In this document: piece after piece, positions 17,473 to 25,347 of the stretch | Numbering within the stretch: position 1 is the stretch's first letter | How the letters are laid out: every line of letters begins with the position of its first letter | Assembly (NCBI GenBank): GCA_021776235.1 | Contig: JAJFGG010000083.1 | Span: forward strand, 1-54,795 | DNA: 54,795 nucleotides | Reading direction: 5' to 3' | Source of the DNA: Alphaproteobacteria bacterium | GTDB taxonomy: Bacteria; Pseudomonadota; Alphaproteobacteria; GCA-2731375 | Translations under genes and position numbers: made by a program | The notes under the pieces: generated by a model | The model's database searches: none | Seen by the model: the letters and a program-made list of their open reading frames with translations, nothing else | What the model was told of the DNA's origin: nothing

Positions 17473-18918
17473 CTATGGTGCAGCGCCGCATCGTCCATGG
17501 CCGGCCGGTGGCGAATGTGCTGCCGCGGTACAGAACGAATAGTGCTGGAAAATCGGATCCTTATGGGTCGTGTAATTTCCGGGACCCTCCAAAGCCGTCA
17601 CGACCAAGCCAAACTGGGCCAAGAAGCCGTCAATGTCGTCGTAACCGGAAATGAACGGTTCTCCCATCTTGCGCATACAACGAATAAAGTTGGTCGCAGC
17701 GGTGTTCCCCGTCTCTCCTTTCACGCCGGCCTCAGAGACAAAGTCGAACCACAACAATGCTCTGGCATCCGACATCAGGTTGCTGATCGAGCGAAAGATC
17801 TGCTTGGACAACAGGTCATCAAAATACATCGATCCGCCTTCCCAGATTATCAGCAGTGGCTTCTCTTGATCGTATGCGTCGATGCTCAGCAGCCGTTCGT
17901 CAAGACGATCAGCCCGAAGATCGATCGGCTCGCGGACGATTTGCATGGATGAATGGTCGGCTTCGGGCAGCACTTCCGCCCGGTAGTTGAGCATGAGCGG
18001 AAGGTCCAATTCAAACCAGGTGTGCTGAGGCGAATCAAGGCGCCAGGGCCGCGTGTCCAAACCCACGCCGACACTCAGGATATTGTACGGCTCCGCCAGC
18101 CCGTCGATCAGCCGATCGATGCTTGCTGTTCGGGTCGCGACCATGGGCGCGAGTTGTGGAATGACCCGGCAAAATCGCCTTGCCAGGGTCACGCCGTGGG
18201 TCCCGGCTGCCCTGGGCGAGATATTATCGTCAAATGCCCGCAGAGCCTCGGGTTTTTCCTGTTCCAACGCGCGCAGACCGGCAATCAGCTTCGCCGAGGT
18301 CTTGTATCTGTGGTCGAATATGGGGTGGACGCGTTTGGTATCGAATGCGTTGGACCGCAGGCTGTGGCTATTCTGCGCCCAATAGGTGAATTCCGCCTGC
18401 GCGACGTGCAAATCGCCATTGTGCATGTCGATGGTCAGGGTCTCGATTACCCGTTTACCGTCGCGGAACCGTCTGTAGATACGCTCCCAATTCTCGGCCG
18501 GCACCGTGGACGTACAGATCAGATCGCCTGAGCTCGGATATAGCCACTTGATGCTGGCCTTGGCGCCCCACATGTAGACTCCGTAGTCTGTCTCCATGGG
18601 ATGAAAGCCGATGATCGGGGCCGATTGAAACAATGTTGAAAGGGCAATACCGCCGGTATAATCGGCCGAGAGCAGCATCAGCGCCGCTTGATGGGTGATG
18701 TATTGGTTAGTTGATTCGACATTGATTGGCAGCGTCGTTCGGGCCTCGCCAAGGGCGATATGATCAATGCGCCAATCGAGAAACTCGAGCACCGGCACGG
18801 CCTCGTGAAATGATGCCGTTAGGGGTCCTTCAATGAATCGGTTCGACCGATCCATCGCCCAATTGCCGTGGAGGTTCATTTCGACAGAACAATTTTTAAA
18901 TTCTTTCACCTGTAACAA
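17473..18918 (-). CDS. Hotdog/DUF4442-like domain fused to leucine-carboxyl-methyltransferase-type methyltransferase
   Basis: 481 residues with two parts. Residues about 45-185 look like a hotdog thioesterase fold of the DUF4442 type: NQYITHQAALMLLSADYTGG as the central helix, then MWGAKASIKWLYPSSGDLIC and a final strand LHVAQAEFTYWA. Residues about 200-465 are a class I methyltransferase of the LCMT/Tcmp family, with the SAM motif ILSVGVGLDTRPWRLD near 280-295, a FELDLP acidic loop and PLLIIWEGGSMYF. The start is probably TTG at 18918, because AAGGGAA lies just upstream; GTG (18909) and ATG (18879) are alternatives. The pairing suggests a methyl transfer on a thioester- or acyl-linked substrate, for example in polyketide-like metabolism (inference). 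Confidence 0.8.
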   Translation of the reverse strand: MLQVKEFKNCSVEMNLHGNWAMDRSNRFIEGPLTASFHEAVPVLEFLDWRIDHIALGEARTTLPINVESTNQYITHQAALMLLSADYTGGIALSTLFQSAPIIGFHPMETDYGVYMWGAKASIKWLYPSSGDLICTSTVPAENWERIYRRFRDGKRVIETLTIDMHNGDLHVAQAEFTYWAQNSHSLRSNAFDTKRVHPIFDHRYKTSAKLIAGLRALEQEKPEALRAFDDNISPRAAGTHGVTLARRFCRVIPQLAPMVATRTASIDRLIDGLAEPYNILSVGVGLDTRPWRLDSPQHTWFELDLPLMLNYRAEVLPEADHSSMQIVREPIDLRADRLDERLLSIDAYDQEKPLLIIWEGGSMYFDDLLSKQIFRSISNLMSDARALLWFDFVSEAGVKGETGNTAATNFIRCMRKMGEPFISGYDDIDGFLAQFGLVVTALEGPGNYTTHKDPIFQHYSFCTAAAHSPPAGHGRCGAAP

Positions 18919-21611: not shown

Positions 21612-21729
21612 CTAAGCGTCCGGTCTTTCGTTGCCGTCTGGCGCGAGCGGTTTGAAGCAGAGCCACACGGGCAAACCGATGAAGGCGAAAATTTCGACTA
21701 GAATGATGGTTCCGATGGCGCTACGTCAT
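21612..21729 (-). pseudogene. Frameshifted paralogue of the 38-residue BCCT-coupled membrane peptide gene
   Basis: Minus strand: the ATG at 21727-21729 is followed by ACG then a stray T. If that base is removed the frame reads a 38-residue peptide, exactly the length of the intact copy at 23741-23857, with shared EIFAFIGL and FKPLAPDGNERPD. An 89-bp block (21609-21697 against 23738-23826) matches at 78 of 89 bases by my count. Six of eight differing codons change the amino acid, including Leu to Pro inside the membrane helix, which fits loss of selection. No BCCT remnant lies next to it. Both copies point the same way and flank the ilvD-like gene. Confidence 0.75.
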
Positions 21730-21820
21730 TGATCGCGGTATCTATGAGCAGGGGATAACCTGGCTATCTCCCATCGAGCAAGCGGACATTTGAAAAAGCA
21801 AAACGGGTGGAGAGTTTATC

Positions 21821-23689
21821 GTGCGAAATTCCAAGGCGGTTCTATTTGATCACAATCCTGGCCGAAACGCGCAGACGGTTGGCATCGCCCGGGAACTTGG
21901 CACCGACATAGATCTGATCCATGAACCGTCGGTTGGCGTGGTCGGCAACAAAGGCGATTCCCAATGTTATCTTGGCGTACAGCGCAAGGTCGAGGTCATC
22001 CACGAATGCCTGCGCGGAAGAATAGGTACGGGCCGTGATCAGTTGAACATGCGATTGGTCCAACCGGAGTATACGGTTGCAACCTCGGACGGCATGCGCA
22101 ATGGCACCCGGGAAATGCGGTATTCCTTGATTGGCCGTGAAGTTACCCACGACACAATGTGCGAGCATCTAAGCGCCAGCGGTCTGGAAGGAACCATCGC
22201 CGTGGTTGCCTGCGACAAACCGCCGGTCGGCACCCTATCGGCTCTTCTTGAACATGACCGCCCCGGCATCGTCATGTCGGACGGCCCCATTCGCCCAGGC
22301 GTGGATTCCGTGACCGAGGAGCCGATCGATATTATTACCGGCTTTCAGGTTGCTGGCAGCGATGACGAGGAATTGAAAAAGCGCGTCGCTTGCGAAGCCT
22401 GCCCCGGATACGGCAGCTGCGGCGGTATGTTTACCTATAACACCATGCAGACCTTCATTGCCGTGGTCGGTATGGAGCCGCTGCATATGGTCTCGCCGCC
22501 ATCGGACGATCCTCGACGGATGGAGCAGTATCCGAACGAACTTGTGACCTATTTGGACGCGATGATGGATGCGGACCTGACGCCGCGAAAAATCGTGAGC
22601 CGGGATTCTATTCGCAACGCGATGATCGTCGCCATGGCTATCGGCGGCTCGACCAATGTCCTGCTGCATGCTCCGGAAATTGCCAGAGCCGCCGGGTTTG
22701 GCAGTTTTGCAGACGACATCATGTCGTTTGAAGAATTCAATCACCTCTCACAGCATGTCGTGCCGGTTCTCGTCGATGCCCGGCCTTTCGGCAACTATTC
22801 CATGGTTGATATTGACGAGAAGGGCGGCATCCAGGTTATCGTCAAAGAGTTGTTGGACGCCGGGCTTCTCAACGGCGAGACGCTTACCTGTACGGGCGAG
22901 ACCTTGTCGCAGCAGGTCGCGCGGCTCGATCCTCCGGCGCCCGATGGCGAGGTCATTTATAGTGTGGCCAACCCATACAAGCCAACGGGTGGACTGCGCG
23001 TGCTGGGCGGAAACCTCTCGCCGGAATTCAGTGCCGTATTAAAGCTGGCCGGCGTCGAGGGCGGCCTGGAGGACAATATTTTTGTTGGCAAGGCGCGAAT
23101 TTTCGATAGCGAGAGCAACCTGTTGCATGCGTTGGAAAGCCATCCCGATGTTATCGAAAATCACGATATGATTATCGTGCGCTATGAAGGGCCGAGCGGC
23201 GCGCCGGGCATGCCGGAAATGCTCGATTCCACTTCCAGGATCACCACCCTGTGCCGCGAAAAGAACATAGTCGTCGGCCTTATGACGGATGCCCGATTCT
23301 CCGGCGGCTCGGTTGGACTGGTGATCGGCCATGTGGGGCCGGAAGCCGCCCTGGGTGGCCCGATCGCCTTTGTGGAAGAGGGCGACGAAATTGTCGTCGA
23401 TCTGAATAAGAACGAGCTGAATTGTACGGCGCTTGCCGACCCGGGCACATTGAGCGCCCGAAAGGCGGCCTGGGAAAAGGTTGTAGAGGGCAACGGCGGT
23501 AGCCACCCCGCGATCGGTAACGCCGACACGCGATTGCTGAACCGCATGCGCCGTTCCGCCGTCTCGGCGGTGTTCGGCGCCGGTATGCATCCGGACCGGG
23601 TCCTTTGGGTCAGCAATCCACGGGAGCCGGAAAAGACATCATTTGTACCGTCGAACAAATACCGCGGAGGTTCCGGGAAGGCGTTTTAG
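21821..23689 (+). CDS. IlvD/Edd-family dehydratase, dihydroxy-acid dehydratase-like
   Basis: 622 residues. The likely [2Fe-2S] cysteines fall at Cys49 (GDSQCYLG), Cys131 (VVACDKPPVG) and Cys200 (CPGYGSCGGMFTYNTM), the spacing of dihydroxy-acid dehydratases. The C-terminal half shows MTDARFSGGSVGLVIGHVGP, with Arg/Ser residues of the active site. The N-terminus (HNPGRNAQTVGIARELGTDI) differs from housekeeping IlvD, so the enzyme may act on a sugar acid or other 2,3-dihydroxy acid rather than in branched-chain amino acid synthesis. The start is GTG at 21821 with GGTGGAG upstream. It sits between two copies of a small duplicated element and next to a BCCT transporter. Confidence 0.88.
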   Translation: MRNSKAVLFDHNPGRNAQTVGIARELGTDIDLIHEPSVGVVGNKGDSQCYLGVQRKVEVIHECLRGRIGTGRDQLNMRLVQPEYTVATSDGMRNGTREMRYSLIGREVTHDTMCEHLSASGLEGTIAVVACDKPPVGTLSALLEHDRPGIVMSDGPIRPGVDSVTEEPIDIITGFQVAGSDDEELKKRVACEACPGYGSCGGMFTYNTMQTFIAVVGMEPLHMVSPPSDDPRRMEQYPNELVTYLDAMMDADLTPRKIVSRDSIRNAMIVAMAIGGSTNVLLHAPEIARAAGFGSFADDIMSFEEFNHLSQHVVPVLVDARPFGNYSMVDIDEKGGIQVIVKELLDAGLLNGETLTCTGETLSQQVARLDPPAPDGEVIYSVANPYKPTGGLRVLGGNLSPEFSAVLKLAGVEGGLEDNIFVGKARIFDSESNLLHALESHPDVIENHDMIIVRYEGPSGAPGMPEMLDSTSRITTLCREKNIVVGLMTDARFSGGSVGLVIGHVGPEAALGGPIAFVEEGDEIVVDLNKNELNCTALADPGTLSARKAAWEKVVEGNGGSHPAIGNADTRLLNRMRRSAVSAVFGAGMHPDRVLWVSNPREPEKTSFVPSNKYRGGSGKAF

Positions 23690-23740: not shown

Positions 23741-23857
23741 CTAAGTGTCCGGCCTTTCGTTGTCGTCCGGCGCGAGCGGTTTGAAATAGAGCCACACAAG
23801 CAAACCGATGAAGGCGAAGACTTCAATGTTCATAATCGTATCAAGCAGTTCACTCAT
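23741..23857 (-). CDS. 38-residue single-pass membrane peptide translationally coupled to BCCT transporter
   Basis: A tiny gene whose ATG (23855-23857) overlaps the TGA of the BCCT transporter (ATGA). It encodes a short polar N-terminus, one hydrophobic segment (residues about 8-25, including VFAFIGLLVWLYF) and a charged C-terminus (PDDNERPDT). The tight coupling, the membrane character and the existence of a same-length paralogue near 21612-21729 argue that it is a real gene. I do not recognise a named family. By analogy with small accessory subunits of transporters it may stabilise or regulate the BCCT protein (inference). Confidence 0.7.
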   Translation of the reverse strand: MSELLDTIMNIEVFAFIGLLVWLYFKPLAPDDNERPDT

Positions 23858-25347
23858 GAGGGGTTCGGCCTTTCTTCCTTGAGCTTTTTCAGGAGGCAGA
23901 CGACAAGCACCAGGACGATAAAGACAAAAGGTAGCGCCCCTAGCGCGATAATTGTTTTTACCGCCTCGATACTGCCCGACAATATCATCACCAAACCCAG
24001 GGCACCCAGAACGACGCCCCAGCTTAGTTTGACGCGGGCGCTGGGATTGAGGTCGCCGCCGGTCGAGAACATCCCCAGTACGAAGGCCGCGCTGACCACG
24101 CTGGTGACAATAAATAGGAAGGCGGCGACCACGACCGCGGCGGTGGTCAACGACGGCAAGGGAAATTGGCTGAGTACGAAAAAGGTCACGCCGCTCACAT
24201 TGTCACGGACCACATCGAGGATCGGCAGGTCGCGTTCCAATGTGCCGTAGAAACCGACACTGCCGAAAACGCCAAACCACAGGATCGAGAATGCCGTCGG
24301 CACCAGGACGACACCGCAAATGAATTCACGGATGGTGCGTCCTTTTGATATGCGTGCGATGAATACGCCGACGAAAGGTGCCCAGGCGAGCCACCAGACC
24401 ATGTAGGTGAGCGTCCAGGATTGAAACCAGTCGCCAATTTGGCTGTCCATAAAGGTGAAGGTACGAAATCCGTGGGTTAACACGCCGCCCAGATACTCAC
24501 CGAAGGCCTGAACAATCCCGCCCATGATGAAATTGGTGGGGCCGAACAGTAGGATGTAGATCATAAGACCGCCGGCAACGGCCATTGCGGCGTTCGAGAG
24601 AATGGCCATGCCACGGCTCAGGTCGACGGTCAAAGGCAGGATGTAGGAGAGGCAGAGCAAGGCGAATATTCCCAACGTGAGACCCAGGCCCGTGTCCTGC
24701 AACCCGAACAGTGCGTCGACGCCCTCCTTGACCTGAAATACGCCCATGGCGATCGATCCGCCAAGACCGATGGCGATTGCAACGATTGCAAGCAGATCGC
24801 TCAACCAGCCGATGCCGCGGGTCAAACGGTTGGTGCCAAACACCTTGATGATTGGCGCGCTGACCAGGCTGGGGCACCCCAGTCGGAACCCGAAGTAGGC
24901 AATGACAAGCCCGGTGAGTGCATAGATCGCCCAGGCATGCAGACCCCAATGGAAGTTGGTCACGAACAAGGCCAAGGAGGCCGATGCTCTGGGATCCTTG
25001 AACTCCGAGATCAACAGATAATGCGTGAGCGGTTCGGCCGTTCCCCAGTAGAGCAGTCCAACACCCATCCCGGCGGCGAAAAGCATGGAGATCCAGGATA
25101 CCGTGGAGAACTCCGGTTCGTCATCATCCTGGCCGAGTTTGATCGCGCCGTAGCGGGACAGCGCCAGCCAGATGCTGGTGATCAGAATGAAGCTGACAGC
25201 CAGCATAATGAACCAGGCGCGGCTGGTGAATTGTATGCCGACGAGATAAGAGGCAAAGGCCGCGAGGCCTGCTGTGTCGACAATTCCCCATACGGCGACC
25301 GCGCCGGTGATCGCAAGCGCGGTAATCAATAGTGGACTCGCAGTCAA
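23854..25347 (-). CDS. BCCT-family betaine/carnitine/choline transporter
   Basis: 497 residues, twelve predicted transmembrane segments. Family signatures are GMGVGLLYWGTAEPLTHY in TM3, TNFHWGLHAWAIYALTGL, and the aromatic substrate-box region LTYMVWWLAWAPFVGVFIAR followed by RISKGRTIREFICGVVLVP. BCCT carriers import quaternary ammonium or sulfonium compounds such as glycine betaine, choline, carnitine or DMSP. There is no long osmosensory C-terminal tail; the protein ends at KKLKEERPNPS, pointing to nutrient uptake rather than osmoregulation. The start is TTG at 25347, six bases after GGAGGG. It is followed by an overlapping 38-residue membrane peptide gene. Confidence 0.95.
   Translation of the reverse strand: MTASPLLITALAITGAVAVWGIVDTAGLAAFASYLVGIQFTSRAWFIMLAVSFILITSIWLALSRYGAIKLGQDDDEPEFSTVSWISMLFAAGMGVGLLYWGTAEPLTHYLLISEFKDPRASASLALFVTNFHWGLHAWAIYALTGLVIAYFGFRLGCPSLVSAPIIKVFGTNRLTRGIGWLSDLLAIVAIAIGLGGSIAMGVFQVKEGVDALFGLQDTGLGLTLGIFALLCLSYILPLTVDLSRGMAILSNAAMAVAGGLMIYILLFGPTNFIMGGIVQAFGEYLGGVLTHGFRTFTFMDSQIGDWFQSWTLTYMVWWLAWAPFVGVFIARISKGRTIREFICGVVLVPTAFSILWFGVFGSVGFYGTLERDLPILDVVRDNVSGVTFFVLSQFPLPSLTTAAVVVAAFLFIVTSVVSAAFVLGMFSTGGDLNPSARVKLSWGVVLGALGLVMILSGSIEAVKTIIALGALPFVFIVLVLVVCLLKKLKEERPNPS

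Follow-up and report, generated by a model that had tools for sequence, protein, structure and literature searches.

In the window (the whole stretch of DNA analysed here, 54,795 nucleotides), a BCCT transporter gene is followed on the same strand by a very short open reading frame, the ATG start codon of which shares 4 bases with the TGA stop codon of the transporter gene. The next gene after it is a convergent gene of the IlvD/EDD family (21821..23689). The features discussed below are the following.

23854..25347, minus strand: BCCT transporter gene, 497 aa, TTG start; matches PF02028 (E 7.5e-145), with a BetP-like AF2 model and almost no C-terminal tail.
23741..23857, minus strand: gene of a single-span membrane peptide of 38 aa, MSELLDTIMNIEVFAFIGLLVWLYFKPLAPDDNERPDT, recognized from its open reading frame, its homologues, pN far below pS and the helix in its AF2 model; proposed small subunit of the BCCT carrier.
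23854..23857, minus strand: ATGA overlap of the BCCT stop and the peptide start, read from the sequence and presumably a site of translational coupling.
21615..21751, minus strand: decayed relic of a second copy of the peptide gene, with no normal start and a frameshift between its halves; its N-terminal remnant was identified by eye.
L157 1038-1481, L167 1036-1476 and L170 1035-1451: a gene between the BCCT and peptide genes in Stappiaceae loci.

A preliminary description of this DNA had reported a 38-residue frame, locked to the BCCT stop by ATGA and encoding one membrane helix with a charged tail. The window sequence and the list of open reading frames bear out the former, and the AF2 model of the peptide agrees with the latter: it consists of one helix spanning residues 3-25 (mean pLDDT 81.9), beyond which the charged tail is modelled with low confidence. 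A scan for promoters and terminators revealed nothing clearly over the shuffled expectation. The partner is a full-length BCCT protein, which covers positions 2-485 of the 485 in PF02028 and scores 483.5 bits, above the curated cut-off of 27. Its AF2 model (pLDDT 85.3) has a BetP-like fold, with BetP as the best PDB match (TM 0.91).

A BCCT protein scan provided 80 named loci, the best 80 of a longer list, and in these a peptide homologue was found directly behind the BCCT gene in all 25 assessable loci in which the carrier is at least 54% identical to that of the window. The homologous frames among these 25 are 26-46 aa long, with starts at -14 to +2 bases relative to the BCCT stop; the overlap is of 4 bases in 16 of the 25, once with a GTG start. 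All 25 encode the conserved core L.DT.(L/M)N...F.(F/Y)IG.L.WL, whereas the tail varies in length and sequence. The search pattern suggested earlier, FKPLAPD..ERPD, thus falls in the variable tail, outside the conserved part. We aligned 26 of the peptides into a profile, A1 (L021 and L022 share one peptide, counted once), in which T7 and N10 are invariant and D6, F14 and W22 nearly so; in a wider set of 30 peptides including that of G120, T7 is replaced by M in one sequence. When the six frames of loci L006-L088 were searched with A1, the 25 loci, L086 (genome G021) and L087, which is the same locus as L017, matched at E <= 4.7e-13, and the next match had an E of 2.5. By the same profile, the peptide is present in 0 of the 54 loci among the best 80 in which BCCT identity is at most 45%; in L045 and L047, only about 240 and 100 bases, respectively, are present behind the BCCT match, and L024, in which the BCCT is cut by the contig end, lies outside the count. 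The hosts of the peptide-bearing loci include Stappia, Labrenzia, Pseudovibrio, Ruegeria, Tropicibacter, Thalassobacter, Roseospira and Rhodovibrionaceae MAGs, among others, in the Alphaproteobacteria; Photobacterium profundum and MAGs in the Gammaproteobacteria, where most are MAG contigs with taxonomy as binned; and, in the Thermodesulfobacteriota, two MAG contigs binned as Pseudodesulfovibrio and Desulfobacterales. A 560-aa open frame in G161 was considered as a possible BCCT-peptide fusion and rejected, given that BCCT and peptide lie in different frames there, as they also do in the 25 named loci.

Since every one of the 25 assessable named loci with a related BCCT has the same gene behind it, the frame is not a product of chance; homologues in the same position, on which the earlier proposal depended, do exist. 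Short open frames are by themselves common (206 of at least 25 aa overlap 16 kb), yet homology, position, selection and the clade pattern together refute the chance reading, to which we give practically no credence.

Across 31 peptides and 25 aligned codons, in a set without the near-copies at the plasmid loci L142 and L143, pN was below pS in 462 of 465 pairs, a sign of strong purifying selection and the codon bias between homologues that the preliminary description had proposed to look for. In comparisons of the window with G021, L029, L009, L012 and L015, pN is 0.07-0.12 and pS 0.72-0.85, and with L006 the values are 0.19 and 0.78; synonymous sites are thus near saturation while the protein is conserved. 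The peptide gene is therefore a real, protein-coding gene. The same contrast bears on the idea that only the act of translation matters, with the frame serving as a coupling or attenuation element for the gene downstream. Frames that overlap a stop codon can indeed serve in re-initiation or attenuation, but strong purifying selection on the amino acid sequence largely refutes this explanation, and the downstream genes differ from locus to locus, the one in the window being convergent. Given the variation of these neighbours, we rejected a downstream attenuator as highly improbable.

The counts of charged residues give the peptide a tentative orientation. In the 30 peptides, the part before the motif holds 2 K/R and 18 D/E residues, whereas 63 K/R and 69 D/E are found from residue 23 onward, and in 26 of the 30 a K or R stands immediately past the helix. 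By the positive-inside rule, this suggests an N-out/C-in topology, a prediction that is not firm because the C-terminal side is acid-rich as well as basic. Conservation confined to one face of the helix was not significant in a periodicity test (p 0.06-0.17).

When 86 BCCTs were placed in a tree, the 28 peptide-bearing rows formed one side of a single branch (SH-aLRT 100), and the presence of the peptide requires one change, a value as low as which was obtained in 0 of 500 shuffles by a quick method. The identical BCCTs of L100 and L006 are both included in this tree, and L140 (Martelella) was not placed. Among 385 genomes of the class, strong peptide matches (E < 1e-6) were confined to the window's genome, G021, G161 and G120. 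BCCTs of at least 64% identity were present in the window's genome, G120 and G161, the next BCCT being 42% identical; the G021 contig, examined by eye, opens in the tail of a BCCT, of which only this tail is visible. Among 398 genomes of the phylum, the strong matches were those of the window's genome, G630 and G120. Each sample also contained six weak matches (E 5.6e-4 to 3.7e-3 in the class, 0.0023 to 0.0093 in the phylum), and no BCCT was found in about 1.5 kb on each side of any of these 12, which we therefore take as chance. In the window's genus and family, a further 14 genomes gave no tblastn match to the peptide at E <= 0.1, so the BCCT-peptide pair is sparsely distributed. Within the family Stappiaceae, the peptide is encoded in 41 of 87 genomes, and exactly these 41 carry a BCCT with 52% identity or more, all further BCCT matches listed (E <= 1e-60) being at most 40% identical. 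The peptide lies within 35 bases of the BCCT match in 38 of the 41 (30 of the 41 loci were read, and adjacency in the remainder was taken from coordinates). The motif stands behind the clade BCCT in all 41, directly in these 38 and with one gene between in the other three (G785, G820 and G822), in which the peptide gene persists and has a start of its own. Thus, the peptide has been passed on together with one BCCT clade, and wherever both were searched for, the two correspond one-to-one.

The gene that intervenes in the three Stappiaceae encodes a product of 139-148 aa that begins like a signal peptide, has shared cysteines and matches nothing in Pfam. The pair also occurs on plasmids. On pTB1 of Roseobacter denitrificans, the peptide is recorded as WP_011655363.1, 'hypothetical protein', and in the plasmid pairs of Roseibium aggregatum, Rhodobacteraceae M382 and Alisedimentitalea it is missing from the PLSDB gene table. 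A sodium/glutamate symporter gene of the gltS type adjoins the pair in several loci, upstream in L007 and L010 and downstream in the plasmid loci L137/L142. Apart from the BCCT gene, a given neighbour of 90 aa or longer is seen in 3 of 26 loci at most.

These neighbourhoods bear on a further explanation, in which the peptide has a membrane function of its own, such as signalling or that of a small toxic peptide, and is merely co-transcribed with the BCCT. A transporter gene can indeed have passengers, and the gene of an unrelated protein bearing a signal peptide does occupy the same slot in three genomes. Nevertheless, the other neighbours vary, and the 385 class, 398 phylum and 87 Stappiaceae genomes contain no strong match away from this BCCT type (with only the BCCT tail visible in G021). 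The constant linkage to the transporter argues against a reading as a type I toxin-like peptide, and we regard an independent function as very unlikely.

The second copy was misjudged in the preliminary description, which had taken a stretch 2 kb away for a same-length paralogue and the pair for a small gene family. By tblastn within the window's own genome, the stretch at 21716-21618 (minus strand) is 73% identical to residues 5-37 of the peptide. However, it has no ATG, GTG or TTG before the middle of the helix, and an in-frame stop lies just upstream; a remnant reading LIDTAIN, recognized by eye, sits in another frame, which together with the upstream stop indicates a frameshift. The helix has suffered L-to-P and Y-to-C changes, and over 27 codons the relic differs from the peptide gene at 5 nonsynonymous and 2 synonymous positions. 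With no start codon, a frameshift and an altered helix, the stretch is a decayed copy; we rejected it as a second working gene, and the genome offers no support for a functional family. The relic lies beyond the IlvD/EDD-family gene, which might have been inserted in or beside a duplicated peptide region. Elsewhere in the window, 17473..18918 (minus strand) encodes a 481-aa protein with a match to leucine carboxyl methyltransferase (PF04072) at 212-378, preceded by a weak DUF4442/thioesterase-like hint (E 0.13, 0.2), an odd domain pairing.

Turning to the carrier, the alignment retains the aromatic residues of TM4 (HWGLHAWAIY) and TM8 (WWLAW), which in BetP structures form the aromatic box for the substrate. 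Because these residues are conserved, the substrate is likely a betaine-like onium compound; a scan of 18 gene neighbours for a clue to the substrate found no consistent metabolic neighbourhood. The carriers of the clade are distinguished by their ends, which come soon after the last helix. Past window position 488, the tail comprises 6-13 residues in peptide-bearing BCCTs (median 8.5, 28 rows) and a median of 30.5 in peptide-less ones (58 rows), in a comparison that ignores relatedness, and short tails of 6-10 residues also occur in 7 of the 58 peptide-less carriers, L030 included. BetP, according to PMC10710835, is regulated via a long cytoplasmic C-terminal domain. Since the clade carriers do without a long tail of the BetP type, the peptide may take part of the osmotic control.

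Three positions further set the clade apart: A at position 254 versus N in 55 of 58 other BCCTs, M at 316 versus W in 52 of 58, and V at 418 versus D in 56 of 58. The nearest outgroup, L030, shares V418 with the clade but has N254 and W316. V418 of the window protein aligns with Asp470 of BetP, described in PMC6400524 and PMC5931594 as lying near the cytoplasmic pathway and listed among residues at the Na3-site position. Judging from these substitutions, ion coupling may be altered in the peptide-clade BCCTs.

The closest peptide-less BCCTs carry a different gene in the same place. In 6 of 6 such loci examined (L030, L031, L034, L036, L110 and, in addition, L140), an OpuAC-matching, lipoprotein-like protein is encoded directly behind the BCCT. 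This protein has an additional NMT1_3 domain in L031, L034, L036 and L140; the end of the locus truncates L110, and the OpuAC match in L030 is weak (62 positions, E 8.5e-6). L140 is a Martelella plasmid copy, outside the tree, with a BCCT of 42% identity, and the overlap there is again ATGA. A Deinococcus plasmid BCCT of 39% identity (L141) has neither the peptide nor an OpuAC partner. That near-outgroup BCCTs carry a betaine-type binding-protein gene at this place suggests that it is a partner slot, the occupant of which has changed. It is possible that the near-outgroup pair forms a binding-protein-dependent BCCT system; no report of a BCCT with a binding protein was found in the open-licence PMC literature. 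A more speculative scenario, to which we hold only tentatively and which is probably not correct in full, starts from an ancestral BCCT coupled to an OpuAC(/NMT1_3) protein. The clade would have swapped in a one-helix subunit on which the carrier depends and, with N254A, W316M and D418V, given rise to obligate two-component BCCTs with altered ion coupling.

Taken together, the data make it probable that the peptide is a single-span inner-membrane accessory subunit of the BCCT encoded just before it. Coupling of the BCCT stop to the peptide start would allow the peptide to be made in step with the carrier. Its helix might then pack on the outer face of the 12-helix carrier via D6, T7, N10, F14, G18 and W22, where it could stabilise the carrier or set its gating, and may bear part of the osmoregulatory control that the C-terminal tail gives BetP. 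An unrecognised accessory subunit of BCCT carriers had been proposed at the outset, and this proposal gains strong support from gene association, coding selection and phylogeny. It has to be narrowed to one BCCT clade, rather than BCCTs generally, and the paralogue argument behind it was wrong; its real support comes from the homologues in other genomes.

The main rival to the subunit reading is a conditional regulator, a peptide that binds the BCCT under some conditions, inhibiting it, or protecting it from, or feeding it to, FtsH-type proteolysis, in the manner of SgrT, MgtS, MgtR or MgtU with other carriers. The genes of small transporter regulators of this kind mostly lie at a distance from those of their targets. 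Here, the fixed coupling to the stop (a 4-base overlap in 16 of the 25 named loci) suggests a constant ratio of peptide to carrier and not expression under particular conditions. That small proteins can regulate transporters is nonetheless documented (PMC10710835), and a regulator could be expected to be equally confined to one clade. On balance, we consider a conditional regulator unlikely.

To our knowledge, BCCT carriers are regarded as single-gene transporters. No report of a BCCT small subunit was found in the open-licence PMC literature, and the accessible parts of PMC13270143 and PMC7876524 contain no mention of 'accessory'. If a one-helix partner is indeed constant in this clade, a BCCT expressed alone may be an incomplete transporter, and the peptide-BCCT pair would offer a simple test case for the effect of one added helix on a LeuT-fold carrier. 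Genes of 26-46 aa are presumably easily missed in annotation, and this family of BCCT-linked small proteins, previously unnamed, has no entry in Pfam or NCBIfam. The window peptide had no match in Pfam, NCBIfam or PHROGs (the last run with three peptides). The 26 peptides fit no family in NCBIfam, where there was one chance-level match (CydP, E 0.045, 1 of 26 members), or in Pfam, where eleven families matched at chance level (best E 0.018, 1-2 members each).

BCCT and NSS carriers share the LeuT fold, and MetPS is an NSS importer. The window peptide resembles MetS, the small subunit of the MetP methionine/alanine importer, in being a very short protein tied to a LeuT-fold transporter, but differs in its partner, which is a BCCT rather than an NSS carrier. 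BetP is listed among LeuT-fold carriers (PMC5931594), and MetPS is named as an NSS importer in a reference title (PMC2807442). The MetS_like_NSS model NF033493 (30 positions) does find C. glutamicum among the controls, yet matched 0 of the 26 peptides at E <= 1. The neighbour of strong peptide matches is a BCCT in the loci examined (in G021, only a BCCT tail), and membership in the MetS family was therefore rejected.

KdpF and CydX/CydP are single-span accessory proteins of membrane complexes. Like these and AcrZ, the peptide would be a single-span accessory protein of a larger membrane machine; unlike them, it has a different partner, and the chance-level hit to CydP is the only family match among them. 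AcrZ is described as a single-span accessory protein in PMC10710835, which also presents SgrT, MgtS, MgtR and MgtU as small proteins acting on transporters. The peptide shares small size with these four, but its gene is tied to the stop codon of the transporter that it accompanies, and the two genes are passed on together. Finally, like the C-terminal tail of BetP, the peptide is small and could control how active a BCCT is; however, the tail of BetP is cytoplasmic and part of BetP itself, whereas here the element is a separate membrane helix beside a carrier with almost no tail.
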